A stretch of 43,222 nt of DNA, taken from assembly GCA_008933835.1 (NCBI GenBank), contig WBUG01000026.1:1-43222 (forward strand). Reading direction: 5' to 3'. The notes beneath the pieces are model-generated. The model did no database searches. It was given only the letters and a program-made list of their open reading frames with translations, and was not told the DNA's origin. This document shows, one piece after another, positions 488 through 31,444 of the stretch. This stretch comes from Bacteroidota bacterium. Its GTDB lineage: Bacteria; Bacteroidota; Ignavibacteria; UBA10030; UBA8401. The position numbers and the translations under genes were made by a program. Each line of letters opens with the position of its first letter. Within the stretch, counting starts at the first letter, position 1.

Positions 488-490
488 TCC

Positions 491-6890: not shown

Positions 6891-6901
6891 TCCACCACCG
6901 C

Positions 6902-6934: not shown

Positions 6935-6956
6935 CGTCATTATCAGGGGGAACCGC

Positions 6957-7289: not shown

Positions 7290-7347
7290 CCGCCCCGCGT
7301 CACCGACCTCCCCGTATGAGAATGTTCTAACGGTGTGCGCTGCGTTC

Positions 7348-7378
7348 TTGCGTTTTGCGCACCCGGGCACTATTTTTC
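7348..7378 (+). promoter_or_regulatory. Putative promoter of duplicated-lipoprotein gene
   Basis: TTG at 7348-7350, a 20-base spacer and TATTTTTC at 7371-7378 form a Bacteroidota-like -33/-7 pair located 47 bases before the ATG at 7426. Confidence 0.5.
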
Positions 7379-7425
7379 CGACAGAGCGTCCATTCGCCAC
7401 CATCTATCCGTACCGGAGGATCGTC

Positions 7426-10080: not shown

Positions 10081-10106
10081 ACACACCACACGAAAGGACC
10101 CGAACC

Positions 10107-11516: not shown

Positions 11517-11534
11517 CGGCGCCGCTGTACACGA

Positions 11535-11569
11535 AAAGACCCCGGCACCGTGCGGTGACCGGGGTCTTT
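11535..11569. terminator. Bidirectional terminator between barrel gene and rpoN
   Basis: AAAGACCCCGG..CACCG pairs with CGGTG.CCGGGGTCTTT (one bulged base), flanked by A-runs and T-runs. This is the classical layout for a terminator shared by convergent genes. Confidence 0.85.
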
Positions 11570-11591
11570 CGTTTCCGGGGCGGACCGGAGG

Positions 11592-13031: not shown

Positions 13032-13036
13032 GGCGG

Positions 13037-13588: not shown

Positions 13589-13737
13589 TGTGCCTAAAAA
13601 AGATACACAATTATTGGGGAAATGAAAAGAGAAAGAGGGGGCAATCCGAAAGAATGGATTGATTCATCGATGCATTGATACAATGAGCAAATGAACCGAT
13701 GCATCAATGACACAATGGATCGAATCCCATTTCTTTT
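13589..13737. repeat. AT-rich spacer with short direct and inverted repeats
   Basis: CGATGCAT occurs at 13668-13675 and 13697-13704 within longer imperfect copies (ending GATACAATG and GACACAATG). These are flanked by AATGGATTGATTC and AATGGATCGAATC. CATTGAT and ATCAATG are inverted around the centre. Composition and style recall the low-complexity array at the left edge. It lies between the dprA stop and the DUF3109 start, both on the minus strand, so it may hold the dprA end and the DUF3109-rpoN promoter. Confidence 0.5.
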
Positions 13738-14847: not shown

Positions 14848-14935
14848 GCGTCTTCCTGTCGGCGCCGCGTGGAGGCGGCGGAGGGGCGGAGTGTGCGGTG
14901 TCGGTGAACGGGCGCAGGGCGGACGGCGGGAACGG

Positions 14936-16240
14936 CTAGGGCGATTCTCCCATGCGGATGCCGCGGGCGAGGGGCTCCCACCAGCGGCGCTCGATGAGGT
15001 GGACGATGTCGAACACCATCAGTCCGTCGGTCTTCTTCAGGTTCATGGCGACCGCGGCGGCGAACTGCTCGGGATGGCCGGCGTACTGTTCCACGTACAG
15101 ACCGCCGAACACCGGAACGGCCCCCATCGTCACCCGCATCGCCATCTCGGCGGACCCCTCCACGGAGTACCACGCTTCCTTCGGTCCGCCGGACCCGGAC
15201 TCGGTCACCGCAGCGCTGTTCTTCCGCGCCAGCTCTTCCTTGGTCACCTCGAAGAAGTAGTTCCCTGTGGTGTACAGGTCCAGCAGTTCGGCGTACCCGT
15301 ACTCGCGGTACCGTTCCGTCGCCCAGGGATATTCGAGGGACGGGTCGTACCGGCGGCTCGCCCAGTTCACCCCCATCTCGTAGTACAGCGGATACCACGC
15401 CCCGGTGTAATCGCCGAAGGAGATGCGGGGATTCGCCCCTTTCACCGCGGCGCGCGCCTCGGCGATGAAGGAATGGATGACCCCCGCACGCCATTCCAGC
15501 CAGCGCCGGTAGAAGGGGCCCGGCACGGTCACGGCCTTCCCGGAGGAGTCCTTCGACCACTCCAGCACGTCGCCGGGAAAACGGGGAACGGCCGCGCCGA
15601 TGTACCGTTCGAACAACGAGCGGGAGAGGGGCGAGAAGTCGGCGGCGATGCCGTCGTAGCGGACGCGGTCAAGGATGACGCCGTCCAGCCGCGGGTAGCG
15701 ACGGACCAATGCTGCGAGGACCGCGAGTTCGTGCGCGCGGACGGCGGGGTCCGCCGGATTGGTCATCGCGGAGTACTTCGTCTTCACCCGCGTGATGGGC
15801 ATGATGCCCGAGTCGGTGTGGACGACGGTGGCCCACTCGGGGTGCGCGGTGTAGACGATGCCGCGGTCATGGAAATTGTGTCCCGCAACGAAGACGTTGA
15901 GCGATGCGTGCACGCGCAGACCGCGCCGGTGTCCCTCTTCGATGAACGTGCCGAGGTAGTCGAAATCGGGCCGCGTGAATCCGTTCCATTCCGTCATGCG
16001 CGGGGCGGCGGTGCAGGGGAAGAGCACCTCGCCGGTGATGGGCTTCACGTCCACCACCGCGTCGGTGAAGCCGAGCCGCCGGAGCGTGTCGAGGTAGCAG
16101 CGGATGGATTCGGGATACGAGAAGCGCCGGAAGTTGGCGGTGGCGTCGAACCACATCAGTTTCGGTTTCGGCGCGGCGATGCCGTGCGCGGAGGGGAGCA
16201 GCAGGGCGAACAGCAGAAGCGCGATGGACCGCCGCGTCAT
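14936..16240 (-). CDS. Secreted family-10-like glycoside hydrolase (GHL10 type)
   Basis: A 434-residue exported protein with a signal peptide (residues 1-22, ending HGIA). LMWFDATANFRRFSYPESI, VVDVKPITGEVL, RGLRVHASLNVFVAGHNF and LDGVILDRVRYD match proteins often labelled alpha-amylase-family or family-10 glycosylhydrolase (GHL10) in Bacteroidota, with a TIM-barrel fold. The substrate is unknown. The start codon overlaps the glmM stop by four bases (ATGA), implying translational coupling to cell-wall precursor synthesis, so a polymer of the envelope is a reasonable but unproven target. Confidence 0.8.
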   Translation of the reverse strand: MTRRSIALLLFALLLPSAHGIAAPKPKLMWFDATANFRRFSYPESIRCYLDTLRRLGFTDAVVDVKPITGEVLFPCTAAPRMTEWNGFTRPDFDYLGTFIEEGHRRGLRVHASLNVFVAGHNFHDRGIVYTAHPEWATVVHTDSGIMPITRVKTKYSAMTNPADPAVRAHELAVLAALVRRYPRLDGVILDRVRYDGIAADFSPLSRSLFERYIGAAVPRFPGDVLEWSKDSSGKAVTVPGPFYRRWLEWRAGVIHSFIAEARAAVKGANPRISFGDYTGAWYPLYYEMGVNWASRRYDPSLEYPWATERYREYGYAELLDLYTTGNYFFEVTKEELARKNSAAVTESGSGGPKEAWYSVEGSAEMAMRVTMGAVPVFGGLYVEQYAGHPEQFAAAVAMNLKKTDGLMVFDIVHLIERRWWEPLARGIRMGESP

Positions 16241-17601
16241 CCCGTGACCTCCTTTTGGAAGCGTTCGACGAGCGCCGCCGCTTCGGCGCGCGTACGCGCC
16301 TCGGCGATGATGCGGATGATCGGTTCGGTGTTGGATTTACGCAAATGTACCCAGGAGGAGGGGAAGTCGATCTTCAGTCCGTCATCCATGTTCGTCCGCT
16401 CGCTCTTCGCGTACCGGTCGTGCAGGCGCGCGAGGACCTCGTCCGGTTTCAGGGAACCGACCTCGATCTTGTTCTTCACAATCTCGTACGCCGGCAGGCC
16501 CGCCTTCAGTTCGGCGGACGAGCCGCCGCTCTCGGCCATCAGCTGCAGGAACAGCCCGATCCCCACCGCCGCGTCGCGGCTGAGGTGCACCTGCGGCAGG
16601 ATGACGCCGCCGCTCCCCTCGCCCCCGATGACGGAGCCGAGCTCCTTCATGCGCGAGGCGACGTTGATCTCGCCGACGGGGGTCCGGTGCACGGCCGCGC
16701 CGTACGTCGCCGCCACGTCCTCCACCGCGCGCGTGGTGGAGAGGTTCACCACCACGGAGTGCCCCGTGCGGCCGGCCCGCTGTTCCGCCGCCAGTACGTA
16801 CTTCACCGCCGAGACGATGGTGTACTCCTCGACGAAGGGACGCCCTTCGTTCGTGAAGAGTACCAGCCGGTCCGCGTCCGGATCGATGGCGAACCCGACG
16901 TCCGCCCGTTCGGCCGCGACGCGCGCCGCCAGCTCGGTCAGGTTCTCCGGCAGCGGTTCCGGCGTGTGGGCGAAGACGCCGCTCACGTCGCAGTGCAGCT
17001 CCACCACCTCGCAGCCGAAGGCGCGGAGCAGCTTCGGCACGATGGCGCCCCCCGAGGCGTTGACGCAGTCCGCCACCACCTTCAGCCGCCGGGCGGCGAT
17101 GGCGCGCACGTCGATGAAAGGGAGGGAGAGGATGGCGTCGATATGCGTGTCGATGAAACCGGGCTCCGGACGAAGCGTTCCCTGGCGGTCCCACGGACGG
17201 TACGCGAAGTTCCCCCGTTCTGCGATGGACCAGAACCGGGCGTTCTCCGCGCCGTTCAGGAACATGCCGGAGGGACCGATGAACTTCAGTCCGTTCCACA
17301 CCATCGGGTTATGGCTGGCGGTGACGGCGATCCCTCCCGCCGCCCGGAACCGCTCCACCGCCAGGCCGACGGTGGGGGTGGGGCAGACGCCGAGATCGAT
17401 CACGTCGCATCCGCTCTGCAGCAGCACGGCGATGACCGTGTCCGCAATGGACCGTCCGGTGATGCGGCCGTCACGTCCCACGGCGATGGTGCCGTGACCG
17501 GCGTACTCCGCGAACGCGGCGGCGTACTTCACCGCGGTCTCCGGCGTGAGGGACGACCCGACGATGCCGCGGATGCCCGAGATGCTGACCATGAGGGACA
17601 T
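16237..17601 (-). CDS. glmM: Phosphoglucosamine mutase, archaeal/Bacteroidota-type GlmM
   Basis: Interconverts glucosamine-6-phosphate and glucosamine-1-phosphate on the way to UDP-GlcNAc, using a phosphoserine. The 454 residues carry the four hallmark loops of the phosphohexomutase family: the active serine S96 in TASHNP, the Mg site DPDADR (D240, D242, D244), the sugar loop GGEGSGG (326-332) and the phosphate loop RKSNTEP (421-427). GEGSGG, rather than the GEQSGH of E. coli GlmM, points to the branch shared by archaea and Bacteroidota, where mannomutase or glucomutase activity is also possible. Start 17601 has AAAGG seven bases upstream; a second ATG lies three codons later. It overlaps the hydrolase gene by four bases. 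Confidence 0.88.
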   Translation of the reverse strand: MSLMVSISGIRGIVGSSLTPETAVKYAAAFAEYAGHGTIAVGRDGRITGRSIADTVIAVLLQSGCDVIDLGVCPTPTVGLAVERFRAAGGIAVTASHNPMVWNGLKFIGPSGMFLNGAENARFWSIAERGNFAYRPWDRQGTLRPEPGFIDTHIDAILSLPFIDVRAIAARRLKVVADCVNASGGAIVPKLLRAFGCEVVELHCDVSGVFAHTPEPLPENLTELAARVAAERADVGFAIDPDADRLVLFTNEGRPFVEEYTIVSAVKYVLAAEQRAGRTGHSVVVNLSTTRAVEDVAATYGAAVHRTPVGEINVASRMKELGSVIGGEGSGGVILPQVHLSRDAAVGIGLFLQLMAESGGSSAELKAGLPAYEIVKNKIEVGSLKPDEVLARLHDRYAKSERTNMDDGLKIDFPSSWVHLRKSNTEPIIRIIAEARTRAEAAALVERFQKEVTG

Positions 17602-17632
17602 GAAGGACCTTTCGCTGCGTGAATGTTCGGAA

Positions 17633-17663
17633 CCAAAATAAGAAAGGAAGTACGGAAGGGCAA
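17633..17663 (-). promoter_or_regulatory. Putative glmM promoter
   Basis: On the minus strand TTG (17663-17661), a 19-base spacer and TTATTTTGG (17641-17633) form a Bacteroidota-like promoter 32 bases before the glmM ATG. Confidence 0.5.
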
Positions 17664-17747
17664 GACGCTGTGACGGCGATGTTTGCAATTGTGCACCGGA
17701 TTGCCCATATTCACCTTCGCCACACGGCCATACATGGAAGGAGCCCT

Positions 17748-18221
17748 ATGAACGCGCGGAAACTCGTCAGAACATTCCTCATCGTCGGCGGAATCCTCTT
17801 CGGACTCATGCAGTTCGTGCAGCCGGACCGTACCAATCCACCGGTGGACCCGTCGCAGACGATGCAGAGCGCTCTGGCCGTTCCTGCGGACGTTTCCGCG
17901 CTTCTGGACCGCGGCTGCCGCGATTGTCACAGCAACAGCACGACATGGCCGTTCTATTCATACATCGCCCCCGCCTCCTGGCTCGTGTCGTATGACGTGG
18001 AGGAGGGGCGGAAGCACTTCAACATGTCCGAGTGGCAGAAGTACAAGTTCTCCCGCAAGACCAACATCCTCGGCGGCATCGCCTCCACCGTCAAAGAGAA
18101 AGAGATGCCGATGCCGAAGTATATCCCCCTGCATCCGGAGGCCGATTTCACGGATGCCGAACGCCAACGCATCATCGACTGGGCTCAGTCCGAAGCGGCC
18201 AAGCTGATGGGTGAGGAATGA
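17748..18221 (+). CDS. Heme-binding domain protein with CxxCH motif
   Basis: A 157-residue exported or membrane-anchored protein. Residues 5-24 form a hydrophobic signal/anchor. CRDCH (C57, C60, H61) is a c-type heme attachment motif, followed by SNSTTWPFYSYIAPASWLV, typical of the Haem_bd family common in Bacteroidota. Later, KEMPMPKYIPLHPEADFTDAERQRIIDWA completes the domain, including methionines that could be axial ligands. The likely role is periplasmic electron transfer or redox sensing. AAGGAG five bases before the ATG supports the start. It is divergent from glmM. Confidence 0.87.
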   Translation: MNARKLVRTFLIVGGILFGLMQFVQPDRTNPPVDPSQTMQSALAVPADVSALLDRGCRDCHSNSTTWPFYSYIAPASWLVSYDVEEGRKHFNMSEWQKYKFSRKTNILGGIASTVKEKEMPMPKYIPLHPEADFTDAERQRIIDWAQSEAAKLMGEE

Positions 18222-18402
18222 CATCCCCCTGCCACACCCTCCGCACCGGAATGTGACGCACCGTACTGCGATTTTCCGCGGATTCCACCATTATTGACGC
18301 ATTGTTGTGACCGGGACCGTCCGGCGGACGGACGGAGCGGGGCGTTTTCTTGCTTACCTCCCCAAAAATCCCAATATTGCGCGTAGAAATCGGAGTACTT
18401 CG
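18222..18402. other. Intergenic region with promoter-like sites
   Basis: About 180 bases without a gene. It contains ATTGACGCATTG (18293-18304), a 12-mer also found in the left-edge repeats. It also has a small CCGTCC/GGACGG hairpin near 18319, and TTG (18350-18352) plus AATATTGC (18373-18380) with a 20-base spacer, a plausible promoter for the CsgG-like lipoprotein gene 22 bases downstream. Confidence 0.45.
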
Positions 18403-19818
18403 ATGAACTCATTGGTTCGCCTTCTGGCTGCCGTCTTCGTTCCGGCGCTTCTCCTCATATCCTGCGGTCCCTCCTTGTCCGACATCACCCTGGACCTCCT
18501 CCAGGAGGGGCGGAACGACGAGGCACTCGCCCGTATGCGCCGTGCGGTGGTGCTGGAACCGACCGAACCGGCCTACCACCGGCTGATGGGGATCGCCCTC
18601 TATAACAAGAAGCAGTACGCCGAAGCCGCCAAGACCTTCGAGAAGGTGCTGAAAATGGACGAGGAGGACGACCAGTCCGCCTACTACCTCGCGGCGGCGT
18701 ACGAGGAGATGAAGGAGTATTCGAAAGCGATCCAGTACTACCGGCTGTACACTGAACTGACCTTTTACGGGGAATATAAGGAGCTGGTGGAAGCCCGCAT
18801 CAAGCTCCTCTACCGCCAGCAGATGGAGGCGGAAGTGCAGAAGGCGCTCCAGATGGAACAGCAGCTGGACGTGGCGAAAGTGCCGGTGAACACCCTGGCG
18901 GTGCTCTACTTCGAGAACAAAGGCCGGAAGAGCGAATACGACCCGCTCCGGAAGGGGCTCGCCGAGATGCTCATCACCGACCTCTCAAAAGTGAAAACGC
19001 TGCGGGTCGTCGAGCGGGTCCGACTGCAGCAGCTCGTGCAGGAGCTGAACCTTTCGGAGACCGACCTGGTGGACCAGAAGAGCGCCCCCCGGTTCGGGAA
19101 ACTGCTCGGCGCCTACCGGCTGGTGAAGGGATCGTTCTTCGAGCTCACCGGCGAAAAGATGAACATCGACGCCTTCGTCACCCGCACGCGTACCGGCTCC
19201 GTCGACGCAACGACGAACATCACCGGCTCCATGCAGGAGTTCTTCCGGATGGAGAAGGAGCTGGTCTTCAAGATCCTCGACGAGATGCAGATCAAGCTCA
19301 GCGACGAGGAGCGCCAGGCCATCCTCGAGGTCCCGACGGAGAACTTCTTCGCCTTCCTGCAATACTCGCGCGGACTCGAACTGGAGGACCGCGGGATGTA
19401 CACGCAGGCATACGAAGCGTATTCGCAGGCCGCGGCGGCGGACCCGGACTTCGCGCAGGCGAAATCCAGCGCCACATCCGCCAAGAAGGCGGAGAGCATC
19501 GTCGGCCCGACCTCCTCGTCCGGACAGAACACCCAGCAGCAGAGCGGTGAGAGCGGCGAGACGCCGCAGAGCGGCACCGAGAAGACCACCGGTTCGTCCC
19601 CCTCCAAACCGACGATGTCCGGCCCCATGGGCATCGGCGGACCGCCTCCCTCCAGCGATCCGCTCAACCGCTCCGGACAGGGGAGCGTCGGGGACCGGAT
19701 GAACAACACCATCAACAACATCCAGAACACCATCAATCCCGGTACCGGCTCGCAGACGCAGCCGCCGCCGACGGTGGTGTCACCGCTGCCGGGCCCGCCG
19801 AATCCGCCGGGAAACTGA
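18403..19818 (+). CDS. TPR and CsgG-like domain lipoprotein
   Basis: A 471-residue lipoprotein: signal sequence with lipobox LISC (C21). Residues 25-150 hold TPR repeats (YHRLMGIALYNKKQYAEAAKTF-type). From about 163 to 325 lies a CsgG/FlgO-like domain beginning NTLAVLYFENKG, with LAEMLITDLSKVKTLRVVERVRLQQLV and LLGAYRLVKGSFF. After a short TPR-like piece (FLQYSRGLELEDRGMYTQA), the last 100 residues are a Gln/Ser/Pro/Gly/Asn low-complexity tail. The CsgG-like part is clearly paralogous to the protein at 25891. CsgG proteins act at the outer membrane in curli export; whether this one forms a pore is unknown. The giant T9SS gene begins one base after its stop, implying coupling. Confidence 0.83.
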   Translation: MNSLVRLLAAVFVPALLLISCGPSLSDITLDLLQEGRNDEALARMRRAVVLEPTEPAYHRLMGIALYNKKQYAEAAKTFEKVLKMDEEDDQSAYYLAAAYEEMKEYSKAIQYYRLYTELTFYGEYKELVEARIKLLYRQQMEAEVQKALQMEQQLDVAKVPVNTLAVLYFENKGRKSEYDPLRKGLAEMLITDLSKVKTLRVVERVRLQQLVQELNLSETDLVDQKSAPRFGKLLGAYRLVKGSFFELTGEKMNIDAFVTRTRTGSVDATTNITGSMQEFFRMEKELVFKILDEMQIKLSDEERQAILEVPTENFFAFLQYSRGLELEDRGMYTQAYEAYSQAAAADPDFAQAKSSATSAKKAESIVGPTSSSGQNTQQQSGESGETPQSGTEKTTGSSPSKPTMSGPMGIGGPPPSSDPLNRSGQGSVGDRMNNTINNIQNTINPGTGSQTQPPPTVVSPLPGPPNPPGN

Positions 19819-19819
19819 G

Positions 19820-22800
19820 ATGCGCCCGCTCGCAGCGATACTCTTCCTCCTCTCCGCGGCGTTCGCACAGAACGTGACCATCACGCCGCTGGGACCCTCC
19901 GGCGGGATCATCACTCTGCTCAAAGCGTCCGCGGACGATGCGGCGGTCCTCGCGGTCGTCGCGGAAGGACCGATGGTCCGTTCCGTCGACGGAGGTTTCA
20001 CCTGGTCGACCGTCGCCTCCTTCCTTCCGACCGGTGCGGGGAACCAACGGCCCGAGATCGCCGACATCGCCTTCCATCCGTACTCCTCCGACACCGTCCT
20101 CGCCGCCACCACCGCCGGTCTGTACCGCAGTTCCGACCGCGGCGCCACCTGGACGTTCATCTCCGGCGGACCGACCCCGCGCTACAGCGTCCGGTACGCT
20201 CCCGCCAATCCCGCCATCGTCATCGGTTCGGACGGCGCCGGCGTGCTCCGTTCGACCGACGGGGGATGGTCGTGGTCGCCGCTGAAGGACAATACGTTCT
20301 TTGGCAACCGTCCCGTCCGCCGCGTTGCGGTCCATCCTGCCGACGCCGAACCGTTCTCGATGCGCATCGCCGCAACGACAACGTTCGACGACACGACCGG
20401 CATCTTCCTCACCACCAATGGCGGCGCCGCCTGGCAACCGATGGTGACCGGCCTACCGAAAGGGGCCGCCCGGCGCATTTACGCCGCGGAGATCGATTCC
20501 ACCGGACTCGGCAAGACGCACTTCCGCGTCGTCATCGGCACGGCGGACGGCGTGTACGGCATGCAGACCGACCAGTACCAGGGGGCATGGCAGGCGGTAA
20601 AGAACAACGCGCTGCCGTTCAAGGGGACCGTCACCGGCGGCGCGTTCATCTACGACTCCTACGACCAGCTGACCCAGCAGCATAAGTTCAGTTTCTTCCT
20701 CTCGTCCAACGGCTCGGAGTACGACGGGCCGCCGGCGGCGTACACCCCCGCGCACGGGCTCTTCCGCATCGATTCGCGCTACAGCACCATCATCACCGTC
20801 GGCGCGCTGCAGCCGCCGGTCGTCCGGGTGTTCGACGGTCTGTGCGACATCGTCTCCATCGCATCGCCCGTGTCGGCGAACAAACAGAAACTGTACCTCG
20901 GCACGTCGGACGGCATCTTCGTCTCGATGGACGGCGGCACGACGTGGGAGCGGAGGAACACCGGCATCAAGCATGCCGTGGTGCGGAACGTCGTTTCGGT
21001 GGAGGGACCGGGCGGCTCCGGAACGCTCTATGCGGCGGTGTACGGCGGCGGAGTGAAGCGCTCAACGGACGACGGCGCGACCTGGTCGACGGCCGGCACC
21101 GGCATCAATAATCCGTACGTCACCGCGGTGGCGGCGGACCGCCGACGGGGCATCCTCTACGCCGGAAGCGTCTTCACATTACAGCAATCCATCGACAACG
21201 GCAAGACCTGGACGGTCCTCTTCACGGCCGATTCCACCATGGTGGTGACGCCGGAACGATTCACGACGCGGGAGAACGAATCGACCATCCGCATCTCACC
21301 GGTGGACCCGAACCTGCTCCTCTACCGCACGTCGGCGTACGGACTCCGCCTCAGCACGAACAGCGGCGTGAGCTGGCACCGCCTTACGATGCCCCCGGCG
21401 CTCGACACGATCCATACGCCGGAGAACATCGCGTTCGATCCAGTCGAGGCCAACACCATCTATCTTGCCGGCGGCCGCATCTACCGCTCCGCCGACCTCG
21501 GCCAGCATTGGAGCGATATCTCGGGGAACATCCCCGTCTCGGTCTTCGTGCCGGAACTCGGTCGCGAATCGGGGCTGGAGATGGTCAGTCCCACCGTCAA
21601 CCCATCCGATCCCTCCGAGATCTTCGTCGCGTCCACGCTGAGCGAGCGCGACGGCGGACCGTACCTCCTGTACCGAACGAGCGATGCCGGTCAGTCGTGG
21701 CAGTCGATGGACACCGCCGTGCGCGTCTACGATGTGGAGTTCGACCGGTACGACGCGAAGCGGCTCGTCGCCTCCGGTCCGTCCGGCGTGTTCCGCTCCG
21801 TGAACGGCGGTTCCTCCTGGTCGTCGATGATGACGCAGACGCAGCGCCCTTCGTTCTATCTTACGGATGCGCACGTTTCCGACCAGGACCGATATTATTT
21901 CGGCAGCGACCAGGGGGTCGTCCGCGGTGTCATCGACGAGCCGCCGTTCCTTACGGTCGACACGGCGGTGGTGGACTTCGGTCTCGTGATGGCGGGAGGG
22001 ATGGAGGAGTACCGTCTTGTGACGCTGAAGAACTCGTCCGGACTCCGGAACGTGCGGGTCCGGTTCGCCGGTCTCTCCGACACCGCGGCGTTCCGGTACG
22101 AAGGCATTCCTGAGTACGACATCCCGGCGGGCCAGTCCGCCGCCTTCACCGTCCGTTTCGCCCCGCTCACGGGCGGAGCGCGGACGGCGCTCCTCCGGTT
22201 CGTCACCACCGACCCGCGCATCGACACGCTTCGCATCGTTCTGAAAGGGGGCGCGTTCTCGGAACCCCTCTTCTCCTTCCTGTCCGCTGACGCCGGCGCG
22301 GTGCTCGTCGGCCGCGACACGGTCCTCACGCTGCAGCTGAACAACGAGTTCGGCGGTTCGGCGGTCTCGCTGCAGTTCCTCGGCAGTACCGATTCGTCCT
22401 CCTTCCGTTACCTCGGCCCGGCGTCGCTCGTCGTGGACACCGGCGCGACTGCGGCGCTCCAGTTCCGTTTTGCTCCCCGGACGGCCGGCGTGAAACGGAC
22501 CTCCTTCGGTTTCTCCACCAGCGACCCGCGGTTCCCGTCGGTGCAGCTGCGCATGACCGGCACCGGCGTCACGCGGAACTTCGTCTCCCGACGCATCCTC
22601 TTCGACACCTCCGTGGGCCTTCCGGCGTCCAACGGTGCGTCGATGAAGGAGAACTATTCGTTCCTCCTCCGTGCGCTGGACCGGGCGGACATCGCCGCGG
22701 ACCTTGCGGCGGATCGGCCTTCCACAGCATACTCTGCCGTGATGTACGTGCAGCCGGACGGTCCTCCGCCGCCGGAGGTCATCGATTCGCTCCGCCGCTA

Positions 22801-24628
22801 CGTGCTGAACGGAGGCACGGTCGTCGCGGTGGGCGACCACGGGTTCGGGGCCGGACTGCCGTTCAACACGTTCCTCCATGACAGTGTCTGGGCCGCCGCG
22901 GGACTCCGCACCGGCCTCCGCTTCGAACCGGACCAGCTCGTCGACGCGTCGACGAACAGCACCACGCACGGCGGTACGCTCACCGCCTATCCCGCGGTCC
23001 GCTCGGCATTGACGAACAATGTGGACAGCATCGCCCTTCTCACCGCTTCGAGCATCACCGTCGACTCCGCCGTCGCCAACGCCGCGGCGCTGTTCGTCGC
23101 CCGCTCGCCGATGCTCTATTCCATCCGGGAGGGTGACACGTCGTACACGGCCGTTCCGTCCGCCGCGGTGGCGGCGGTCAGCCGGCTGGGAAAAGGGAAG
23201 GTCATCGCCCTCTCCGACCGGCACTTGTGGGAGAACGGCATGTTCCTCGACTCGATGGTGCAGTACGGGCTCTTCAGCGCCCGGAACCTCCAGTTCGCGC
23301 TGAACGTCTTCGGCACCGTGGACAACTACACGGCCGTGCTGCCGAATCCCACGCCGCAGGAGGCGTACCAGCTCATCAGCATCCCGTTCCACTTCAGTGA
23401 TTCGTCGGTCCTCGCCCTCTTCAAGGACCTCGGCCGTCCCAACGACCTCGTCTGGCGGATGTTCGGACGCTGGACCGATGCGGCCGGATACGAGGAGTTC
23501 CCTGACCAGTTCAAGTCGGTGCGTCGCGGCGAAGCGTACTGGCTCATCACCAAACAGCGGACCGGCATCTCCTTCGGCACCACGGAGGTGCAGGGCTCCG
23601 AAGCGGACTTCGAACTCACGCTCCAGCCCGGATTCACCATGCTCGGCAATCCGTTCCCGTACGCCGTGAGCTGGGCGGAATCGTTCCGGGAGGACACTTC
23701 GGTCTCGGCGGTGCTCTGGCGGTACGACGGACGCTGGGACACCACCACGCAGGTGATGCGGCCGTTCGAAGGGTACTTCGTCCGCAACCGTTCACAGGTC
23801 AAGAAGACCGTCCGTATCAGTTCCGTTCCCGTCGACCTGTCGCTTTCGGTGCCGAAGTTCTCGTCATTCCAGGACGTCGCCGCCCCGGACGAATGGGTGC
23901 TCCGCATCGCCGCCGAGTGCGGCGACGCGTCTGACCGCGTCAATTTCGCCGGGCGTCGTCACGGTGCGCACATCAATGACGATCCGTTCGACCTCGACGA
24001 TCCGCCCCCCGCACCGGGGAAGAGCGTCTCGGTCACGTTCCGCAACGGAACACGCCGGCTTGCGTCGGACATGCGGCCGGTATCGGCGGACGGCGGAGTG
24101 TGGGAGTTCGAAGTGGGCACCGGCGCTCCGGGAGCCGTCGTCCGTCTTCTGCTGGAGCGCAGCGGCGTACTGCCGCCGGGGCACTCGATGGTCCTGCTGG
24201 ACATTGAGAAGGAAAGAGCGTATGCTGTGACGGGCACGAAGGAGGTCACGATCCCGTTCGGACGGAACGAGATCCGGCGCGGATTCCGGCTGCTCACGGG
24301 GAACGAACGGTTCCTGGCGGAGCATTCCGGCGGCATACCGCTGACGCCGGTGGAATACGCTCTGCATCAGAACTACCCGAACCCGTTCAATCCTGTGACC
24401 AATATCACATACGGCCTGGCCAGGAGCGGCGAGGTTCGGCTGGAAGTGTTCAATCTCCTCGGACAGAAGGTCCGTACATTGTACCGCGGTTTTCAGCCGG
24501 CCGGAACGTTCACCGCGGTCTGGGACGGCCGAAACGACGAAAATTCGCCCGTCTCAAGCGGCGTATACTATTATAGGCTGCAGAGCCGCGAGTACTCGGC
24601 AATGCGCAAGATGACGCTCATCAAGTAA
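19820..24628 (+). CDS. Giant T9SS-sorted surface protein with BNR/sortilin-like repeats
   Basis: A 1602-residue secreted protein. A signal peptide (MRPLAAILFLLSAAFAQ) is followed by about 690 residues of BNR/sortilin-type beta-propeller repeats, recognisable by S.DGG.TW, SSDRGATW and STNSGVSW motifs. Residues 710-915 are two ASPM/SPD-2/Hydin-like immunoglobulin domains (VVDFGLVMAGG, FTVRFAP, FRFAPRTAG). About 920-1060 resemble a glutamine-amidotransferase-like fold (VIDSLRRYVLNGGTVVAVGDHG) with no catalytic residues I can assign. Residues 1511-1602 are the T9SS type A sorting domain (HQNYPNPFNP, VFNLLGQKVRTL, SGVYYYRL). The protein should pass the outer membrane by T9SS and be anchored or released. 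The start lies one base after the upstream stop. Confidence 0.88.
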   Translation: MRPLAAILFLLSAAFAQNVTITPLGPSGGIITLLKASADDAAVLAVVAEGPMVRSVDGGFTWSTVASFLPTGAGNQRPEIADIAFHPYSSDTVLAATTAGLYRSSDRGATWTFISGGPTPRYSVRYAPANPAIVIGSDGAGVLRSTDGGWSWSPLKDNTFFGNRPVRRVAVHPADAEPFSMRIAATTTFDDTTGIFLTTNGGAAWQPMVTGLPKGAARRIYAAEIDSTGLGKTHFRVVIGTADGVYGMQTDQYQGAWQAVKNNALPFKGTVTGGAFIYDSYDQLTQQHKFSFFLSSNGSEYDGPPAAYTPAHGLFRIDSRYSTIITVGALQPPVVRVFDGLCDIVSIASPVSANKQKLYLGTSDGIFVSMDGGTTWERRNTGIKHAVVRNVVSVEGPGGSGTLYAAVYGGGVKRSTDDGATWSTAGTGINNPYVTAVAADRRRGILYAGSVFTLQQSIDNGKTWTVLFTADSTMVVTPERFTTRENESTIRISPVDPNLLLYRTSAYGLRLSTNSGVSWHRLTMPPALDTIHTPENIAFDPVEANTIYLAGGRIYRSADLGQHWSDISGNIPVSVFVPELGRESGLEMVSPTVNPSDPSEIFVASTLSERDGGPYLLYRTSDAGQSWQSMDTAVRVYDVEFDRYDAKRLVASGPSGVFRSVNGGSSWSSMMTQTQRPSFYLTDAHVSDQDRYYFGSDQGVVRGVIDEPPFLTVDTAVVDFGLVMAGGMEEYRLVTLKNSSGLRNVRVRFAGLSDTAAFRYEGIPEYDIPAGQSAAFTVRFAPLTGGARTALLRFVTTDPRIDTLRIVLKGGAFSEPLFSFLSADAGAVLVGRDTVLTLQLNNEFGGSAVSLQFLGSTDSSSFRYLGPASLVVDTGATAALQFRFAPRTAGVKRTSFGFSTSDPRFPSVQLRMTGTGVTRNFVSRRILFDTSVGLPASNGASMKENYSFLLRALDRADIAADLAADRPSTAYSAVMYVQPDGPPPPEVIDSLRRYVLNGGTVVAVGDHGFGAGLPFNTFLHDSVWAAAGLRTGLRFEPDQLVDASTNSTTHGGTLTAYPAVRSALTNNVDSIALLTASSITVDSAVANAAALFVARSPMLYSIREGDTSYTAVPSAAVAAVSRLGKGKVIALSDRHLWENGMFLDSMVQYGLFSARNLQFALNVFGTVDNYTAVLPNPTPQEAYQLISIPFHFSDSSVLALFKDLGRPNDLVWRMFGRWTDAAGYEEFPDQFKSVRRGEAYWLITKQRTGISFGTTEVQGSEADFELTLQPGFTMLGNPFPYAVSWAESFREDTSVSAVLWRYDGRWDTTTQVMRPFEGYFVRNRSQVKKTVRISSVPVDLSLSVPKFSSFQDVAAPDEWVLRIAAECGDASDRVNFAGRRHGAHINDDPFDLDDPPPAPGKSVSVTFRNGTRRLASDMRPVSADGGVWEFEVGTGAPGAVVRLLLERSGVLPPGHSMVLLDIEKERAYAVTGTKEVTIPFGRNEIRRGFRLLTGNERFLAEHSGGIPLTPVEYALHQNYPNPFNPVTNITYGLARSGEVRLEVFNLLGQKVRTLYRGFQPAGTFTAVWDGRNDENSPVSSGVYYYRLQSREYSAMRKMTLIK

Positions 24629-24640
24629 ATCCTCAATGTG

Positions 24641-25846
24641 ATGATACGTACAACTTCCGACCTCCGAACTCTCCATATTGGGGCTGTCATTTTTTTAGGA
24701 CTGGCCGTCACGATACCGTTACGGTCACAGATCGCGAAGCCGGGATACGACGACCGACTGCTCTTCAAAGGCGCCACCGGAGCGGTCATCGGCGGAACGG
24801 TGCAGCAGTGGACGCTGAACGACACCGGCACGTTCTTCCAGTTCTCCGCCCCCTTTTCCGTCTCGGTGCCGGTCGGCAACCGGATGCTGCTGTCGGTGAC
24901 GAACTCCGGAATGTCGTCCTCGTCGGACCGGGCGGATGTGGCGGGCATCGTGGACACGCGCGTCGGACTTTCGTACGTGCTACCCGGTGACCGGATCTGG
25001 CTGACGGCCGGCGCGAGCATCCCCACCGGAACGACGGAGCTGGACGAGGCGAACGGTGAGCTCGACCTGTCGAAGTACATCACGCAGCCGGCGTTCGCGT
25101 TCCGCACGCCGGTGTTCGGCCAGGGGTTCAGCGGGAACGCGGGGGTCGCCTACGCGGCGCCGCTGACGCGGCGGCTGGTCTTCGGTCTGGGCACGTCGTT
25201 CTTCTACCGCGGCGAGTACCGGCCGGTGAAGAGTTCCGGCGATTCGGGTGCGGTCGCGTTCGACTACGATCCCGGGGACGAGGTCTCCGTGAACATGGGG
25301 ATCGATTACATCACGTATTCCAAAGCCGCGCGGGTCTCGTTCGACCTCACCGCGACGTACTTCTTCGACGACCGGCTCAACGGTGCAACGGTGTTCCGTT
25401 CCGGTCCGCGGTTCTCCCTCTTCGGCGTGTACGCGCTGCGCACGGGGGAGTTCTCGCACGCGCTGAACGCCCGGCTCCGCTACCGTCTGCAGAACGCCTA
25501 CATCACGGCCGGGACGGAGACGAAGTACGATGCGGCCGTGCAGGGCGAAGCGCAGTACACGCTCACCCGGCCGCTCACCGACTGGCTCGTCGGCACCGGT
25601 TCCGTGGAGCTCAAGTACTACACGCCGGACCAGGTCCCCTTCGGCGGATCCATCGTCAAGACCGGCGACGCGACCGTGGTGTCGGTCGGCGCGGACCTGC
25701 TGCTGCTCGTGTCGGACATCGTGACGCCGACGGTGACCCTCCGCTACGCGGCGGGGACCAGCACCATCGCGGACGGTGCGTTCAACGAAGTGTCGTACGA
25801 CGTCACCGGCCTCGAGGCCGGCGTCGGTCTGAAGGTCTCGTTCTGA
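24641..25846 (+). CDS. Outer-membrane beta-barrel protein
   Basis: A 401-residue protein of unrecognised family. The N-terminus has a hydrophobic segment (IGAVIFLGLAVTIPLRSQ) that fits a signal peptide. The rest is rich in alternating strands with aromatic girdles (LTAGASIPTGTTELD, FGLGTSFFYRGEYRPV, YRLQNAYITAGTETKYDA) and ends GVGLKVSF, a typical terminal barrel strand. It could be a pore or a docking partner for the preceding giant protein. A GTG three bases earlier is an alternative start. It lies 12 bases after the T9SS gene and 44 before the next. Confidence 0.72.
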   Translation: MIRTTSDLRTLHIGAVIFLGLAVTIPLRSQIAKPGYDDRLLFKGATGAVIGGTVQQWTLNDTGTFFQFSAPFSVSVPVGNRMLLSVTNSGMSSSSDRADVAGIVDTRVGLSYVLPGDRIWLTAGASIPTGTTELDEANGELDLSKYITQPAFAFRTPVFGQGFSGNAGVAYAAPLTRRLVFGLGTSFFYRGEYRPVKSSGDSGAVAFDYDPGDEVSVNMGIDYITYSKAARVSFDLTATYFFDDRLNGATVFRSGPRFSLFGVYALRTGEFSHALNARLRYRLQNAYITAGTETKYDAAVQGEAQYTLTRPLTDWLVGTGSVELKYYTPDQVPFGGSIVKTGDATVVSVGADLLLLVSDIVTPTVTLRYAAGTSTIADGAFNEVSYDVTGLEAGVGLKVSF

Positions 25847-25890
25847 CAAGTGTCGTTCTTATGTCTCATCAATCCGGAAGGATCATTCCT

Positions 25891-26655
25891 ATGAAGTCCA
25901 CATCCATCACGCGATGGTCGTCGGTCCTGCTCGCCGCGGCGTTCTGCCTGCTCCTGCTCCCCGGCACCGCCCGGGCCGACGGGCCGAAGACGATCGCCGT
26001 CCTCTACTTCGAGAACAACAGCGTCGTCGACAAGGAGAAACTGGACCCGCTCAAGAAGGGGCTCGCCGATATGATGATCACCGAGATGACGAAGGTGAAG
26101 GGGCTGAAGGTGGTCGAACGGCAGCGCATCCAGTCCATCCTGGAGGAACTGAACCTGAACGAGACGGACATGGTGGACCGTTCCACCACGCAGAAGATGG
26201 GGAAACTGCTCGGGGCGCAGGTGATGCTCTTCGGCGGGTTCTCCAACCTCTTCAACGACCAGCTCCGCATCGACGTCCGCGTGGTGCGCACCGAGACGGG
26301 CGAGACGCTGAAGGCGGAGGAGGAGACGGGTGAGCTCGACGAGTTCCTCACCATGCTGCAGTCCCTCGTGACCAAGGTGGCGAAGGACCTCGACGTGAAG
26401 CTCTCCTCCGAGGAGGAGGACCGGCTGGAGGCGGCGAAGGACGGGAACTTCGACGGCTTCGTGACGTACGCGAAGGCGCTCAACCACGAGGACAACGGCA
26501 AGAAGCTGGAAAAGCAGGGAAAGAAGGGGGAGGCGAAGACGGCGTTCGAGAGCGCGCGCTCCCTGTTCCAGAAGGCGTACGACGAATCCGACGGCTATGA
26601 ACCCGCCAAGTCCAAGATGGACGAGATGGCGGCCGCGATCGCGAGATTGAAATAA
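25891..26655 (+). CDS. CsgG/FlgO-like periplasmic protein
   Basis: A 254-residue protein with a cleavable signal peptide (cleavage near TARA-D, residue 29) and no lipobox cysteine at the mature N-terminus. Residues 33-190 form the CsgG-like domain (KTIAVLYFENNS, LADMMITEMTKVKGLKVVERQRIQSIL, LNLNETDMVDRST, LLGAQVMLFGGF), strikingly similar to the domain in the protein at 18403. The C-terminus is charged and helical, with a single TPR-like unit. It may assemble with its paralog at the outer membrane. I start at 25891, preceded by GGAAGGAT; an in-frame ATG ten codons upstream is less likely. It lies 25 bases before the transglutaminase fusion gene. Confidence 0.82.
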   Translation: MKSTSITRWSSVLLAAAFCLLLLPGTARADGPKTIAVLYFENNSVVDKEKLDPLKKGLADMMITEMTKVKGLKVVERQRIQSILEELNLNETDMVDRSTTQKMGKLLGAQVMLFGGFSNLFNDQLRIDVRVVRTETGETLKAEEETGELDEFLTMLQSLVTKVAKDLDVKLSSEEEDRLEAAKDGNFDGFVTYAKALNHEDNGKKLEKQGKKGEAKTAFESARSLFQKAYDESDGYEPAKSKMDEMAAAIARLK

Positions 26656-26680
26656 CAACAACACTACAAGGAGAGATTCC

Positions 26681-29164
26681 ATGAAACGCATGCTATTGTT
26701 CCTGTCGGTCTGTGCGCTGCTGGCCGGACCGCTCGCGGCGCAGGACATGCCGCGCGTGATGGTGGCCGTCGACGAGAAGATCGACGACAAGGACGCCGCC
26801 GCGCGCAAGGTGGCCGGCAAGATCGAGAAGGCGCTCCTCGCCAAGGGGTACCGCATCGTGGACGCCCGTCAGTTCGACCAGGTCCGCGGACGCGACCTGG
26901 CGATGGGGGACCTGAACCCGACCAAGGCGAAGGAGCTCGGACGCCGGTACGGCGCGGAGCTCATCATCGCCGGCGGCGCGCAGGCGGTCTTCGGCGCGGA
27001 GCTCGAGACCTACGGCATCAAGACGCAGGAGTACACGGCGGACGGCGAAGTGAAGCTCATCATCACGGACACGGGGGAGATCCTCGCCGTGGCGAGCGCC
27101 ACCGCCAAGAAATCGTCGCAAGGGAAGTCCCAGGCCGCCTCGCGCTCCCTGGAAGAGATCGGTGAAGCGCTGGCGGCGGAGCTGACGGCGAAGCTCGACG
27201 CGAAGATGAAGGAGATGAAGGAGAAACCCATCATCGTGGAGCTCATCCTCCAGGGGATCAACGACGCCTCCCTGATGCGCATCGAGCAGGAACTGCCGCA
27301 GAAGCTCTCCATGATCGAGAGCATGAAGCTCCGCTACATGGAGGGGGACGCCGCATCGTACGACGTGAAGATGAAGGGGACCCTCGACGACCTCCGCAAG
27401 GCCCTCTCGCAGATGCAGGACTACGCCGTGGTCGGCGCGTCGGGCAACCGCCTGGACGTCTCCACCAAGACCGGCGGCGTGAAGAAGACGAGCGTCATCA
27501 TGTCCAGCGCACTGGAGATCACCGAGTTCCGGGTGGAGAACATCTTCCCGGCCCAGTACGCCTACTACGCCGCCAATCCCATCGGCGCCATCACGCTGGA
27601 GAACACCGGCAAGACCGACGTGAAGAACATCAAGGCGAAGGTCTTCATCCCCGCCTACATGCAGTTCGCCTCCGAACAGACCATCCCGCTGCTGAAGGCG
27701 GGGGAGAAGAAGACGTTCGACGTGTCGGCGACGCTCGACGTCGAGAAGCTGCAGACGGTGACCGAGAAGAAGGTCACGCAGATCAAGGCGGAGATCGCCT
27801 ACAACCACAACGGCGAAGAGAAGAACCGCAGCATCACCAAGCCGGTGACGATGTACAGCAAGAACGCCATCAGCTGGAACCGGCCGAACCACGTCGGGGC
27901 GTTCGTCACCGCGAAGGACGCCGCCGTCGAGAACTTCTCCCGCAACGTCGTCGGGAACGTGAAGTTCGACCCCGCCGCTTACCCGAACGCGTCGCGCAAC
28001 ATGGTGAACGCGATGAAGATCTGGGACGCGGTCCGCGCCTTCTCCATCAACTACGTCTCCGACCCGTGGGTGGTGGCCGAAGGGGACGTGCTGGACGAGA
28101 TCCAGTTCCCGCGCCAGACCCTCGCGAAGAAGGCGGGCGACTGCGACGACAGCTCCATCCTGCTCGCCGCCTGTCTGGAGAACCTCGGCATCCGTACGAA
28201 GCTCGTCGGCACCGCCGACCACATCTTCATCATGTTCGACGCGGGGGTGAACCGCAAGAACGCGTCGCGGGTGAGCCTGAACGAGCGCGACTACGTCCTG
28301 GCGGACAACACCGTCTGGATCCCGCTGGAGACCACCGTCATCAACAAACCGTTCTCCGACGCGTGGAAGCTCGGCGCCGAAGGGTACCACAAGACCGCCG
28401 ACGCCAACGGGAAGCTCGACATCATCGACGTCCGGAAGGCGTGGGAGGTCTCGGCCCCCGCGAACCTGGCGGGCGACGAGAAGGTCGCCGCGACGCCCGA
28501 CGCCGCCGTCATCGAACGGCTCCTGTCGGAGGACGCCGCCGCCCTGACGAAGTCCGGCGCCGACATGCTCGGCGAGAAGGTGGCGTACCTGAAGGCCCAG
28601 AAGACCGAAGCGGGTGCGAACGAAGCGGCCATGCTGCTCGCCAACGCCGGCCGGTACGACGAGGCCATCGCCGCGGTGAAGCCGTACAAGGGCGCCGCCG
28701 CGCAGAACAACCTCGGCAACGTCTACCTGCTGAAGGGCGATTCGCTCAACGCGGTGAAGAGCTACGCGGCCGCCCTCAAAGCGGACGCGAAGGACGGCGG
28801 CATCGACCTGAACATCGGTCTGCTGAAGTACCTCGGCGGGGACCACAGCGGCACGGTGGATGCCTTCGCCGCCGCCGTCGGCAAGTTCCCGACGCAGGAG
28901 CAGGCGTACGCGGAGCTCGGCATCGACAACATCGTGGCGGAGATGGGGCAGACCCGCGCCGCCGAACGGACCGCGTTCGTGGACAAGGGGGAGCTGCAGA
29001 GCCTCCTCTTCAGCGCGCTGCAGGACCTGCAGGCCCGCAAGGAAGCGCGCGCCACGAGCCGCCAGGTTCGCCGCGGCGAGAACAAGTTCGTCTTCGGCGG
29101 ACGGCGCGGCATCGATCCGACCGCCCTGGCGAACATCAAGGACTTCCTGTACTGGAAAATCTAG
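26681..29164 (+). CDS. CsgG-like / transglutaminase-like / TPR fusion protein
   Basis: An 827-residue exported protein (signal peptide MKRMLLFLSVCALLAGPLAAQ). Residues 24-175 look like a CsgG-family fold (VAGKIEKALLAKGYRIVDARQF, ELGRRYGAELIIAGGA). A middle beta-rich part (about 280-400) resembles a conserved-repeat/Ig domain (AITLENTGKTDVKNIKAKVFIP). A transglutaminase-like domain follows with a complete apparent triad: C488 in AGDCDDSS, H514 in ADHIF and D542 in ADNTVW. The C-terminal 200 residues are TPR-like (AAQNNLGNVYLLKGDSLNAVKSYAAAL). It could crosslink, cleave or hold peptide substrates in the periplasm; which is unknown. AAGGAG seven bases before the ATG supports the start, and a perfect hairpin follows the stop. 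Confidence 0.82.
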   Translation: MKRMLLFLSVCALLAGPLAAQDMPRVMVAVDEKIDDKDAAARKVAGKIEKALLAKGYRIVDARQFDQVRGRDLAMGDLNPTKAKELGRRYGAELIIAGGAQAVFGAELETYGIKTQEYTADGEVKLIITDTGEILAVASATAKKSSQGKSQAASRSLEEIGEALAAELTAKLDAKMKEMKEKPIIVELILQGINDASLMRIEQELPQKLSMIESMKLRYMEGDAASYDVKMKGTLDDLRKALSQMQDYAVVGASGNRLDVSTKTGGVKKTSVIMSSALEITEFRVENIFPAQYAYYAANPIGAITLENTGKTDVKNIKAKVFIPAYMQFASEQTIPLLKAGEKKTFDVSATLDVEKLQTVTEKKVTQIKAEIAYNHNGEEKNRSITKPVTMYSKNAISWNRPNHVGAFVTAKDAAVENFSRNVVGNVKFDPAAYPNASRNMVNAMKIWDAVRAFSINYVSDPWVVAEGDVLDEIQFPRQTLAKKAGDCDDSSILLAACLENLGIRTKLVGTADHIFIMFDAGVNRKNASRVSLNERDYVLADNTVWIPLETTVINKPFSDAWKLGAEGYHKTADANGKLDIIDVRKAWEVSAPANLAGDEKVAATPDAAVIERLLSEDAAALTKSGADMLGEKVAYLKAQKTEAGANEAAMLLANAGRYDEAIAAVKPYKGAAAQNNLGNVYLLKGDSLNAVKSYAAALKADAKDGGIDLNIGLLKYLGGDHSGTVDAFAAAVGKFPTQEQAYAELGIDNIVAEMGQTRAAERTAFVDKGELQSLLFSALQDLQARKEARATSRQVRRGENKFVFGGRRGIDPTALANIKDFLYWKI

Positions 29165-29272: not shown

Positions 29273-31444
29273 ATGAACAAAAAACTCATGAAGACCATGT
29301 TCGGCATCCTGTTCGCCGTGGTCTCCGTCGCGCTCACCACCGGTCTGTTCCAGTGGGAGTTCTTCCGGTCCCTCGAACTCAAGGCGTACGACGCTATGCT
29401 CACCGCCCGCGGAGTCCGGGAGCACACATCGAACGTCGTCATCATCAAGATCGACGAATTCACGATGAAGGAGCTGGACTATCCCATCCCGCGCGACAAG
29501 TACGGAACGCTCCTCGCCATCCTCGCGCAGAGCGGCGCCAAGGCGGTGGGGGTCGACGATCTCTTTCCGACGGTGAAGCAGGACAGCGTGTCGCTCGCAC
29601 AGAACGAGCAGTTCCTCCTCTTCCATAACTACGCGCCGAACGTCTATCACGCCATCGGACCCTTCATCCCGCTGGACGACAATCCCGGCGAGCCCCGGCA
29701 CACGGACCGTGAGGCGTACGCGACGCTCCATCCGCACTCCATTCCGGCGAACGGCCGCCGGCTGAACTTCCCGCAGGCCACGTACATCGACGAGCGGCCG
29801 TTCGATTCCCTCGCGTCGCTCGCCGCCGGGGTCGGCCACGTGCTGCTCTCCCCCGATCCCATCGACGGCATCATCCGCGCGGTCCCCTTCTTCGTCGAGT
29901 TCTCCGGAGACTACTATCCGACCTTCGGAGCGGCGCTGGCGTTCGCGGCGGCCGGCGTGGACCTGAGCACTGTGACGGTGGAGGAGACCGAGACCGGCAT
30001 GACGGTGCATGCGCCGGTCGGCGCCTCCGGACGCACGCTCGAGATACCTCTCACCACGGAGGGGGACCTGGAGATCGACTACGTGGGGGGGAACGACAAC
30101 TTCACGCAGGTGTCGCTGCAGGACGTGCTGGACGCTTTCGTGCGGCAGGATGCCGCCTTCCTGGCGAAGTTCAAGGACGCCGTCGTCATCATCGGGCCGA
30201 CCGCCCGCTCCATCGGCGACCATAACGCGACCCCCATCGCCGACATCTCTCCCAACTGCTTCGTGCATGCGAACGTCTATGACCAGATCATGATGGGACG
30301 CTACATCACCCACGCCCCGGCCGGCACTCAACTGCTGGTGCTGATGGTGCTGGCGCTCATCGTGAGCATCGCCGCCATCCTGCTCAAACTGCGCTGGAGC
30401 GTCCCCATCGGCGTGGTGCTCACCGCCGGGTACCTCTGGTTCGCCTTCTCCACCTTCACGAACACGGGGGAGGTGTACACGCTCATCGAGCCGCTGTTCG
30501 CCCTGTTCTTCTGCTACGCCTCGGCGATGAGCTACACCGCCGCCACCGAAGGGCGCCAGAAGGCGATGATCAAGGGGATGTTCGAGAAGTACGTGGACCG
30601 GGCGGTGGTGCAGCAGATCATCGACAATCCGTCGCTCGTGAAGCTCGGCGGCGAGGAGCGCGAGATCACCACCGTGTTCGCCGACATCGAAGGGTTCACC
30701 AGCATGGCGGAGAAGATGGGCCCGCAGAACACCGTCGGCATGCTGAACTCCTACCTCACCGAGATGACGAGCATCATGATCGAGGAGTACGGGACCATCG
30801 ACAAGTACATCGGCGACGCCATCATGGCCTTCTGGGGCGCCCCGCTGGAGGACAAGGACCACGCCTACCACGCCTGCGCGGCCGCCATCAAGATGCAGCG
30901 GAAACTGACCGCCCTCCACACCAAGTGGATCCATTACGGCCGTCCGGTGGTGAACCAGCGCATCGGCATCAACACCGGCAAGGCGGTGGTGGGGAACATG
31001 GGGGCCGAGGCGCGCCTGAACTACACCGCCATCGGCGACGCGGTGAACCTCGCCTCGCGGCTCGAGGGAGTGAACAAGGAGTACGGCACCCGTCTGCTGA
31101 TGAGCGACAACACCTACCGGCAGGTGCACGACCGCGTCCTCTCCCGCGAGATGGACCTCGTGGTGGTGGTGGGGAAGACCGAACCGGTGCGCATCTACGA
31201 GCTCATCGCGCTGGCGGACGAGGTGCAGACCGACGCCACCAAGAAGTTCCTCGAGTACTACCACAACGGTCTCGAGGCGTACAAGAAGCGCGCCTGGCGC
31301 AGCGCCGTCGACCAGTTCAACCAGGCCCTCTCCATCCGCAAGGACGACATCGTCTCGAACCTCTACATCCAGCGCTCGATGCTGTTCGTGGACAATCCTC
31401 CGCCGGAGGACTGGAACGGCGTCTTCGTGATGACGAAGAAGTGA
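29273..31444 (+). CDS. CHASE2-domain adenylate cyclase
   Basis: A 723-residue membrane enzyme predicted to make cAMP. An N-terminal membrane segment (residues 8-26) leads to a periplasmic CHASE2 sensor domain (about 30-335). Further transmembrane helices (about 343-440) follow, then a class III cyclase domain (about 455-640). Metal-binding D471 (FADIEGFT) and D515 (YIGDAIMA) are present. K511 and T585 fit ATP selection, and N592 and R596 (AVNLASR) complete the site. The C-terminus has one TPR-like unit (YYHNGLEAYKKRAWRSAVDQFNQAL). AGGAG precedes the ATG by five bases. It follows a strong terminator, so it is probably its own unit, and is followed by sdhC after 180 bases. Confidence 0.92.
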   Translation: MNKKLMKTMFGILFAVVSVALTTGLFQWEFFRSLELKAYDAMLTARGVREHTSNVVIIKIDEFTMKELDYPIPRDKYGTLLAILAQSGAKAVGVDDLFPTVKQDSVSLAQNEQFLLFHNYAPNVYHAIGPFIPLDDNPGEPRHTDREAYATLHPHSIPANGRRLNFPQATYIDERPFDSLASLAAGVGHVLLSPDPIDGIIRAVPFFVEFSGDYYPTFGAALAFAAAGVDLSTVTVEETETGMTVHAPVGASGRTLEIPLTTEGDLEIDYVGGNDNFTQVSLQDVLDAFVRQDAAFLAKFKDAVVIIGPTARSIGDHNATPIADISPNCFVHANVYDQIMMGRYITHAPAGTQLLVLMVLALIVSIAAILLKLRWSVPIGVVLTAGYLWFAFSTFTNTGEVYTLIEPLFALFFCYASAMSYTAATEGRQKAMIKGMFEKYVDRAVVQQIIDNPSLVKLGGEEREITTVFADIEGFTSMAEKMGPQNTVGMLNSYLTEMTSIMIEEYGTIDKYIGDAIMAFWGAPLEDKDHAYHACAAAIKMQRKLTALHTKWIHYGRPVVNQRIGINTGKAVVGNMGAEARLNYTAIGDAVNLASRLEGVNKEYGTRLLMSDNTYRQVHDRVLSREMDLVVVVGKTEPVRIYELIALADEVQTDATKKFLEYYHNGLEAYKKRAWRSAVDQFNQALSIRKDDIVSNLYIQRSMLFVDNPPPEDWNGVFVMTKK

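Follow-up and report, generated by a model that had tools for sequence, protein, structure and literature searches.

Which function unites a giant protein with a type IX secretion system (T9SS) tail, a beta barrel and several CsgG-like proteins when their genes lie side by side in a member of the Ignavibacteria? The question is raised by contig WBUG01000026.1 of Bacteroidota bacterium assembly GCA_008933835.1, which was analyzed over a stretch of 43,222 nucleotides (the window). A first-pass annotation had described five consecutive plus-strand genes, here P1 to P5, with gaps of 1, 12, 44 and 25 bases, and had interpreted their products as an envelope complex for the giant protein P2. The five genes and their spacing were confirmed, but the gaps depend on start-codon choice: P3 can start at 24638 or 24641 and P4 at 25861 or 25891, resulting in gaps of 1, 9-12, 14-44 and 25 bases. 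Orthologue starts favor the ATG at 25891 for P4. The unit is larger than the five genes, since the conserved locus runs past P5 and takes in a CHASE2 adenylate cyclase at 29273-31444. Promoter and terminator scans of the locus gave hits at chance level only and carry no information on operon structure. The locus is apparently the core of a conserved cell-surface system without earlier description; no paper describing this gene set was found in a search limited to open-licence papers.

One set of 395 genomes of the phylum was searched with profiles of both P1 and P3, with a P1 family threshold of E <= 1e-20. Relatives of the two proteins occurred in identical sets of 21 genomes, usually within one cluster; in one genome counted among the 21 (G399) the P1-profile match covers the shared domain only. 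Genera of the window's own family, f1, share the gene order P1-P2-P3-P4-P5. In the f1 genome G010, which is 100% complete, P1, P2, P3 and P5 are absent together, the cyclase has matches at paralogue level only, and P4 is kept. That the gene grouping is a conserved system and not a product of chance is well supported. A duplication of part of the cluster was seen in L099 (G055, 1-9000), where a tandem P1-P3-P1-P3 is followed by a T9SS giant.

Outside f1 the genes are mostly arranged as kinase-P4-P1-[T9SS giant]-P3, and a PP2C phosphatase gene precedes the kinase in many of the loci read. A Ser/Thr kinase is encoded directly 5' of P4 in 18 non-f1 loci (L094-L098, L100, L121, L123-L125, L127, L129, L130, L142-L145, L147). 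All 12 kinases checked have one transmembrane segment, and a PEGA domain, predicted to be periplasmic, was found in 10 of the 11 scanned by Pfam. Kinase genes were not detected in f1 loci, in which the order is P3-P4-P5-cyclase. On the same module, the kinase of the other families is replaced by the CHASE2 cyclase in f1, a coupling to signalling that the first-pass annotation had missed. Because this natural swap takes place on the same outer-membrane module, the coupling can be tested by comparison. In genus g101 (L123, 12612-18289, and L124) the kinase-P4-P1-P3 cluster adjoins type VI secretion system (T6SS) genes (VasE/TssK, DotU, IcmF) and a gene for an FHA-SLT protein, an arrangement also seen where a kinase controls a T6SS.

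The kinase or cyclase might regulate the operon or cell physiology without any sensing of P2, which P3 and P1 would passively hold at the surface in the way of PorP and PorE. PorE, an outer-membrane-associated lipoprotein, forms a complex with the FadL-family barrel PorP and T9SS cargo (PMC9143113), and the P1-P3-P2 combination is similar. However, passive anchoring is at odds with the position of the kinase in the 18 loci and with its exchange for another transmembrane signalling enzyme instead of a simple loss. In addition, the Pfam matches of P1 are to tetratricopeptide repeats (TPR) and CsgG/LpoB, with no OmpA-like peptidoglycan-binding domain among them. We consider this explanation rather unlikely.

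The cyclase gene shows strong Pfam matches to CHASE2 (E 7e-42) and Guanylate_cyc (E 2e-21). Two transmembrane segments are predicted around a predicted periplasmic CHASE2 domain, and the class III catalytic motifs FADIEGFT, DKYIGD and GDAVNLASRL are complete, including the metal Asp, the Lys/Asp substrate residues and Asn/Arg. The gene is located 3' of P5 in all 15 f1 loci with a long enough contig (L036-L049, L052), and it remains beside P5 where the succinate dehydrogenase genes, its neighbors in the window, are inverted or absent from the neighborhood (L043, L044, L045, L047). Family f22 harbors full-length P5 without P1-P4, and a CHASE2 cyclase adjoins it in both loci read (L134, L135). 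P5-like proteins of about 1500 residues adjoin CHASE2 cyclases in L137 and L140, and in L055, L138 and L139 a barrel-like/transglutaminase protein is encoded near a CHASE2-containing gene, which in L055 is of the sigma-54 activator type. In family f6, P5 adjoins a T9SS giant and P1, P3 and P4 are absent there. Thus f1 appears to have joined a P1-P4 module with a P5/cyclase module, the two standing apart in other families. The f6 giant beside P5 in L051 (G044, 6842-19900) exceeds 4352 residues, and the open frame there has 5788 codons.

P5 had been described as a fusion of CsgG-like, transglutaminase and TPR parts. The TPR part was recovered, the transglutaminase part is weak (Transglut_core 17.6 versus a Pfam cut-off of 23, which one P5 relative exceeds), and the N-domain is CsgG-like by fold only. 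In the structure model (predicted local distance difference test, pLDDT, 74) the N-domain resembles HpaA, GNA1162, FlgT and CsgG, the first three outscoring CsgG, and the C-terminal half resembles TPR proteins. C488, H514 and E550 are invariant in 18 of 18 aligned sequences. The transglutaminase-like domain may act in crosslinking. In L043, L045, L046 and L047 the GDCDD motif at residues 486-490 (window about 28136-28150) is changed to ANCSG with the Cys retained, which may alter activity or metal binding. Nearly invariant across f1 and f6 is a C-terminal motif, NxFxFGGRRGxxP...YW (window about 29080-29161), modelled with low confidence. Residues 299-586 match NF058533, the anti-phage protein ProA model, with 67.8 bits, far below cut-off; no paper explaining this similarity was found, and the neighboring genes are unlike defence genes. 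The LapG family BTLCP was not among the Pfam matches of P5 up to E = 1.

P3 had been recognized as a beta-barrel protein, and the AlphaFold2 model (22 input sequences, pLDDT 85) agrees, showing an all-beta outer-membrane-type barrel of about 16 strands. Its best structural matches in the PDB are to FadL (E 2e-10, TM-score about 0.4), which has 14 strands. P3 matched no Pfam family, a PDB sequence profile search gave no matches, and none of the 22 P3 members matched the PorV, PorQ or PorP/SprF models of NCBIfam and Pfam. Barrels of the PorV and PorP-like kind serve as binders of T9SS cargo and have been described as 14-stranded members of the FadL family (PMC9143113). The FadL-like fold would suit a role of P3 as a PorV-like shuttle for P2 in a cargo-specific secretion or maturation pathway, where the transglutaminase-like domain of P5 would process or crosslink P2 or its partners; the invariant Cys, His and Glu of P5 and the f6 loci with P5 beside a giant point the same way. 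Yet the missing PorV, PorQ and PorP matches, the absence of P5 from most P3 clusters and the pairing of P5 with CHASE2 cyclases in loci without P1-P4 (L134, L135) make such a pathway improbable.

P1 and P4 are paralogues in their shared domain (43% identical, E = 2e-40), and the common motifs reported earlier are present: LAVLYFEN in P1 and IAVLYFEN in P4, VVERVRLQ and VVERQRIQ, LNLSETDLVD and LNLNETDMVD, and KLLGA in both. In a tree of this domain, whose root is arbitrary and in which a few long rows are unsure, the P1 proteins of the clusters form one clade with full support, the exception being a weak, long-branched P1-like row from L136. This indicates that the divergence of P1 and P4 predates the separation of these families. 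P1 has a lipobox, LLISC, with Cys21 invariant in 19 relatives of families f1 and f5. Its C-terminus consists of a variable linker and an invariant PLPxPPxPP-like tail, with L462 and P468 invariant in the same relatives; this tail (window about 19770-19815) resembles a docking peptide.

The first-pass annotation had assigned P1, P4 and P5 to CsgG-type export or assembly machinery. Pfam CsgG matches above cut-off in P1 and P4 and the match of the P5 N-domain to CsgG pre-pore structures, among others, are in line with an outer-membrane ring for the giant. However, the matches cover only model positions 13-98 (P1) and 6-98 (P4) of 210, whereas elsewhere this genome also encodes two full CsgG proteins, whose matches reach 4-207 and 4-204. 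Because of this difference in profile coverage, P1 and P4 are considered to lack the C-terminal half of CsgG, and for the P5 N-domain HpaA, GNA1162 and FlgT are better matches. Sequence profiles of P1, P4 and P5 against the PDB found mainly TPR proteins and were uninformative for other domains. The T9SS tail of P2, together with SprA encoded in the genome, makes T9SS the likely route. Given the partial model coverage and the two full-length controls, a CsgG export ring was rejected as the main explanation and is very improbable. What stands of the envelope-complex proposal is the system itself, seen in gene order, co-presence of P1 and P3 and the joint loss in G010, its envelope site and a T9SS giant as the likely cargo. 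As reported before, no curlin or other csg gene is present at the locus, which consists of the T9SS giant, the barrel, the CsgG-like proteins, P5 and the cyclase. Elsewhere in the window's genome a full CsgG gene adjoins genes for DUF4810 and GNA1162-like lipoproteins (L106, G000 contig C41, 2315-5384).

P4 also shows weak LpoB matches (E 1e-5 in Pfam, E 1e-6 in NCBIfam), as would be expected if P1 and P4 activated a peptidoglycan synthase in the control of envelope growth and the surface protein were incidental. Its score of 28.5 bits falls far short of the NCBIfam equivalog cut-off of 110.55, though, and the genes conserved alongside encode a barrel, a T9SS giant and a kinase, with no synthase among them. 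LpoB-like control is thus hardly to be expected.

The T9SS tail previously noticed in P2 is of type A and exceeds the curated cut-off (TIGR04183, 29.1 versus 23 bits). Upstream of it P2 contains BNR/Vps10 propeller repeats, choice-of-anchor and immunoglobulin-like (Ig) regions and DUF4350. The P2-type giants that were scanned measure between 562 and 2343 residues; relatives have the C-terminal module and tail in common and the remainder differs, with propellers in f1 and ASH/HYDIN-type Ig arrays in others. Among the proteins of the locus, conservation within f1 is lowest in P2 (about 30-46%) and highest in P4 and P5. The gradient from periplasm to surface fits a displayed protein on conserved periplasmic partners. 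In L046 an additional T9SS protein of 1368 residues is encoded between P2 and P3 (9208-13314), and in L040, where P2 is missing, P1 and P3 are separated by about 95 bases (8602-8698).

Taken together, these features suggest that P2 is a T9SS-delivered surface giant held by its cognate barrel, whose periplasmic partners report its state to a cyclase here and to a kinase elsewhere. P2 would be exported through T9SS and kept at the surface with the help of the FadL-like barrel P3. P1, a TPR/CsgG-N lipoprotein at the periplasmic face, and its soluble periplasmic paralogue P4 would bind the P2-P3 complex and relay through the periplasm whether it is occupied, loaded or strained. The receiver in f1 would be the transglutaminase-like/TPR protein P5, acting on the periplasmic CHASE2 domain of the cyclase; in most other lineages with the module it would be the single-transmembrane Ser/Thr kinase beside P4, usually with PEGA and often with a PP2C phosphatase. 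We give this mechanism about an even chance of being correct.

Several observations weigh against it. The C-module that P2 shares with giants of related clusters is present in unrelated T9SS proteins as well. Some loci do not encode P2: G003 (L040) retains P1, P3, P4, P5 and the cyclase without it and L123, L124 and L145 have no P2 between P1 and P3. In f6, P5 lies beside a T9SS giant and the cyclase is loosely linked or located elsewhere. Finally, the likeness of P3 to FadL is at fold level only. With somewhat less confidence than in the mechanism itself, we propose a previously undescribed class of trans-envelope surface sensing, in which a T9SS giant, a FadL-like barrel and a CsgG-N/TPR pair feed an interchangeable kinase/PP2C or CHASE2 cyclase/P5 output. 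If true, this would be a direct link, in a large phylum, between protein display through T9SS and Ser/Thr phosphorylation or cyclic-nucleotide signalling, and would suggest a possible input route for the CHASE2 and PEGA sensor domains. What CHASE2 recognizes is not known (PMC5192318).

Table 1. Features of the locus, in window coordinates
Feature	Position	Strand	Basis
P1, predicted outer-membrane lipoprotein, TPR and N-terminal-CsgG/LpoB-type domain	18403..19818	+	Pfam CsgG, lipobox, alignment of relatives
P2, 1602-residue T9SS-sorted surface protein, likely displayed cargo	19820..24628	+	Pfam/NCBIfam matches, low conservation
P2 N-terminal part, 11 BNR/Asp-box motifs (Sortilin-Vps10/Ycf48-like propellers)	19973..21919	+	Domain and motif scan
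P2 C-module, directly before T9SS tail	23351..24331	+	Comparison with related giants
P2 T9SS type-A sorting domain	24365..24625	+	TIGR04183
P3, predicted outer-membrane beta barrel of a new family, closest in fold to FadL	24641..25846	+	AlphaFold2, profiles
P4, secreted periplasmic paralogue of P1 CsgG/LpoB-type domain, TPR-like C-terminus	25891..26655	+	Pfam, P1/P4 comparison, PDB profile, domain tree
P5, secreted periplasmic: FlgT/GNA1162/CsgG-like N-domain, CARDB-like Ig, transglutaminase-like, TPR, C-terminal motif	26681..29164	+	
P5 transglutaminase-like domain	27968..28450	+	Weak Pfam match, conserved residues, relative above cut-off
CHASE2 adenylate cyclase, conserved sixth gene after P5	29273..31444	+	Pfam, locus comparison, motifs, transmembrane prediction

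In function the system is probably closest to the T9SS anchoring complexes with a cognate barrel, although the sequence features of those families are missing; membership of the LpoB, PorE, PorP/PorV and LapG families was rejected on sequence. PorE-PorP with type B cargo and SprF-SprB are T9SS complexes (PMC9143113). Like the locus, they combine a lipoprotein facing the periplasm, a dedicated outer-membrane barrel, which in the case of P3 has FadL as best fold match at a low TM-score, and a surface protein that is exported by T9SS, in the case of P2 probably so. In contrast to them, P3 matches no PorP/SprF or PorV model, the P2 tail is of type A, P1 has a CsgG-N/LpoB domain in place of the OmpA-like domain of PorE, and the locus adds a conserved kinase or cyclase and the second paralogue P4. 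With the curli channel CsgG of the type VIII secretion system, homology extends over the N-terminal half of the domain, but the C-terminal half and all other csg genes are missing and the cargo is T9SS-tailed. CHASE2/FecR signalling operons such as BiofilmReg of Burkholderia (PMC5192318) likewise place a CHASE2 sensor gene beside secreted or periplasmic partners. A FecR-like gene adjoins the P5-like protein in L055; unlike in BiofilmReg, an adenylate cyclase provides the output, and the role of partner falls to a transglutaminase/TPR protein associated with a putative T9SS display module. In the PpkA/PppA/Fha control of type VI secretion, a transmembrane Ser/Thr kinase, a PP2C phosphatase and an FHA protein are encoded beside envelope genes. 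Outside f1 the module likewise has a Ser/Thr kinase, often with PP2C, next to envelope genes, and the g101 cluster (L123) adjoins T6SS genes and the gene for an FHA protein. At the window locus T6SS genes are absent, and the accompanying genes encode a T9SS giant and a barrel. LapA/LapG/LapD adhesin control combines a giant surface protein, a periplasmic Cys protein of transglutaminase fold and cyclic-nucleotide signalling in one pathway. The locus equally unites a giant, a transglutaminase-like periplasmic protein and a cyclic-nucleotide enzyme. It differs in the lack of a Pfam BTLCP match in P5, in the type of enzyme, an adenylate cyclase, and in the cargo, which would exit by T9SS.

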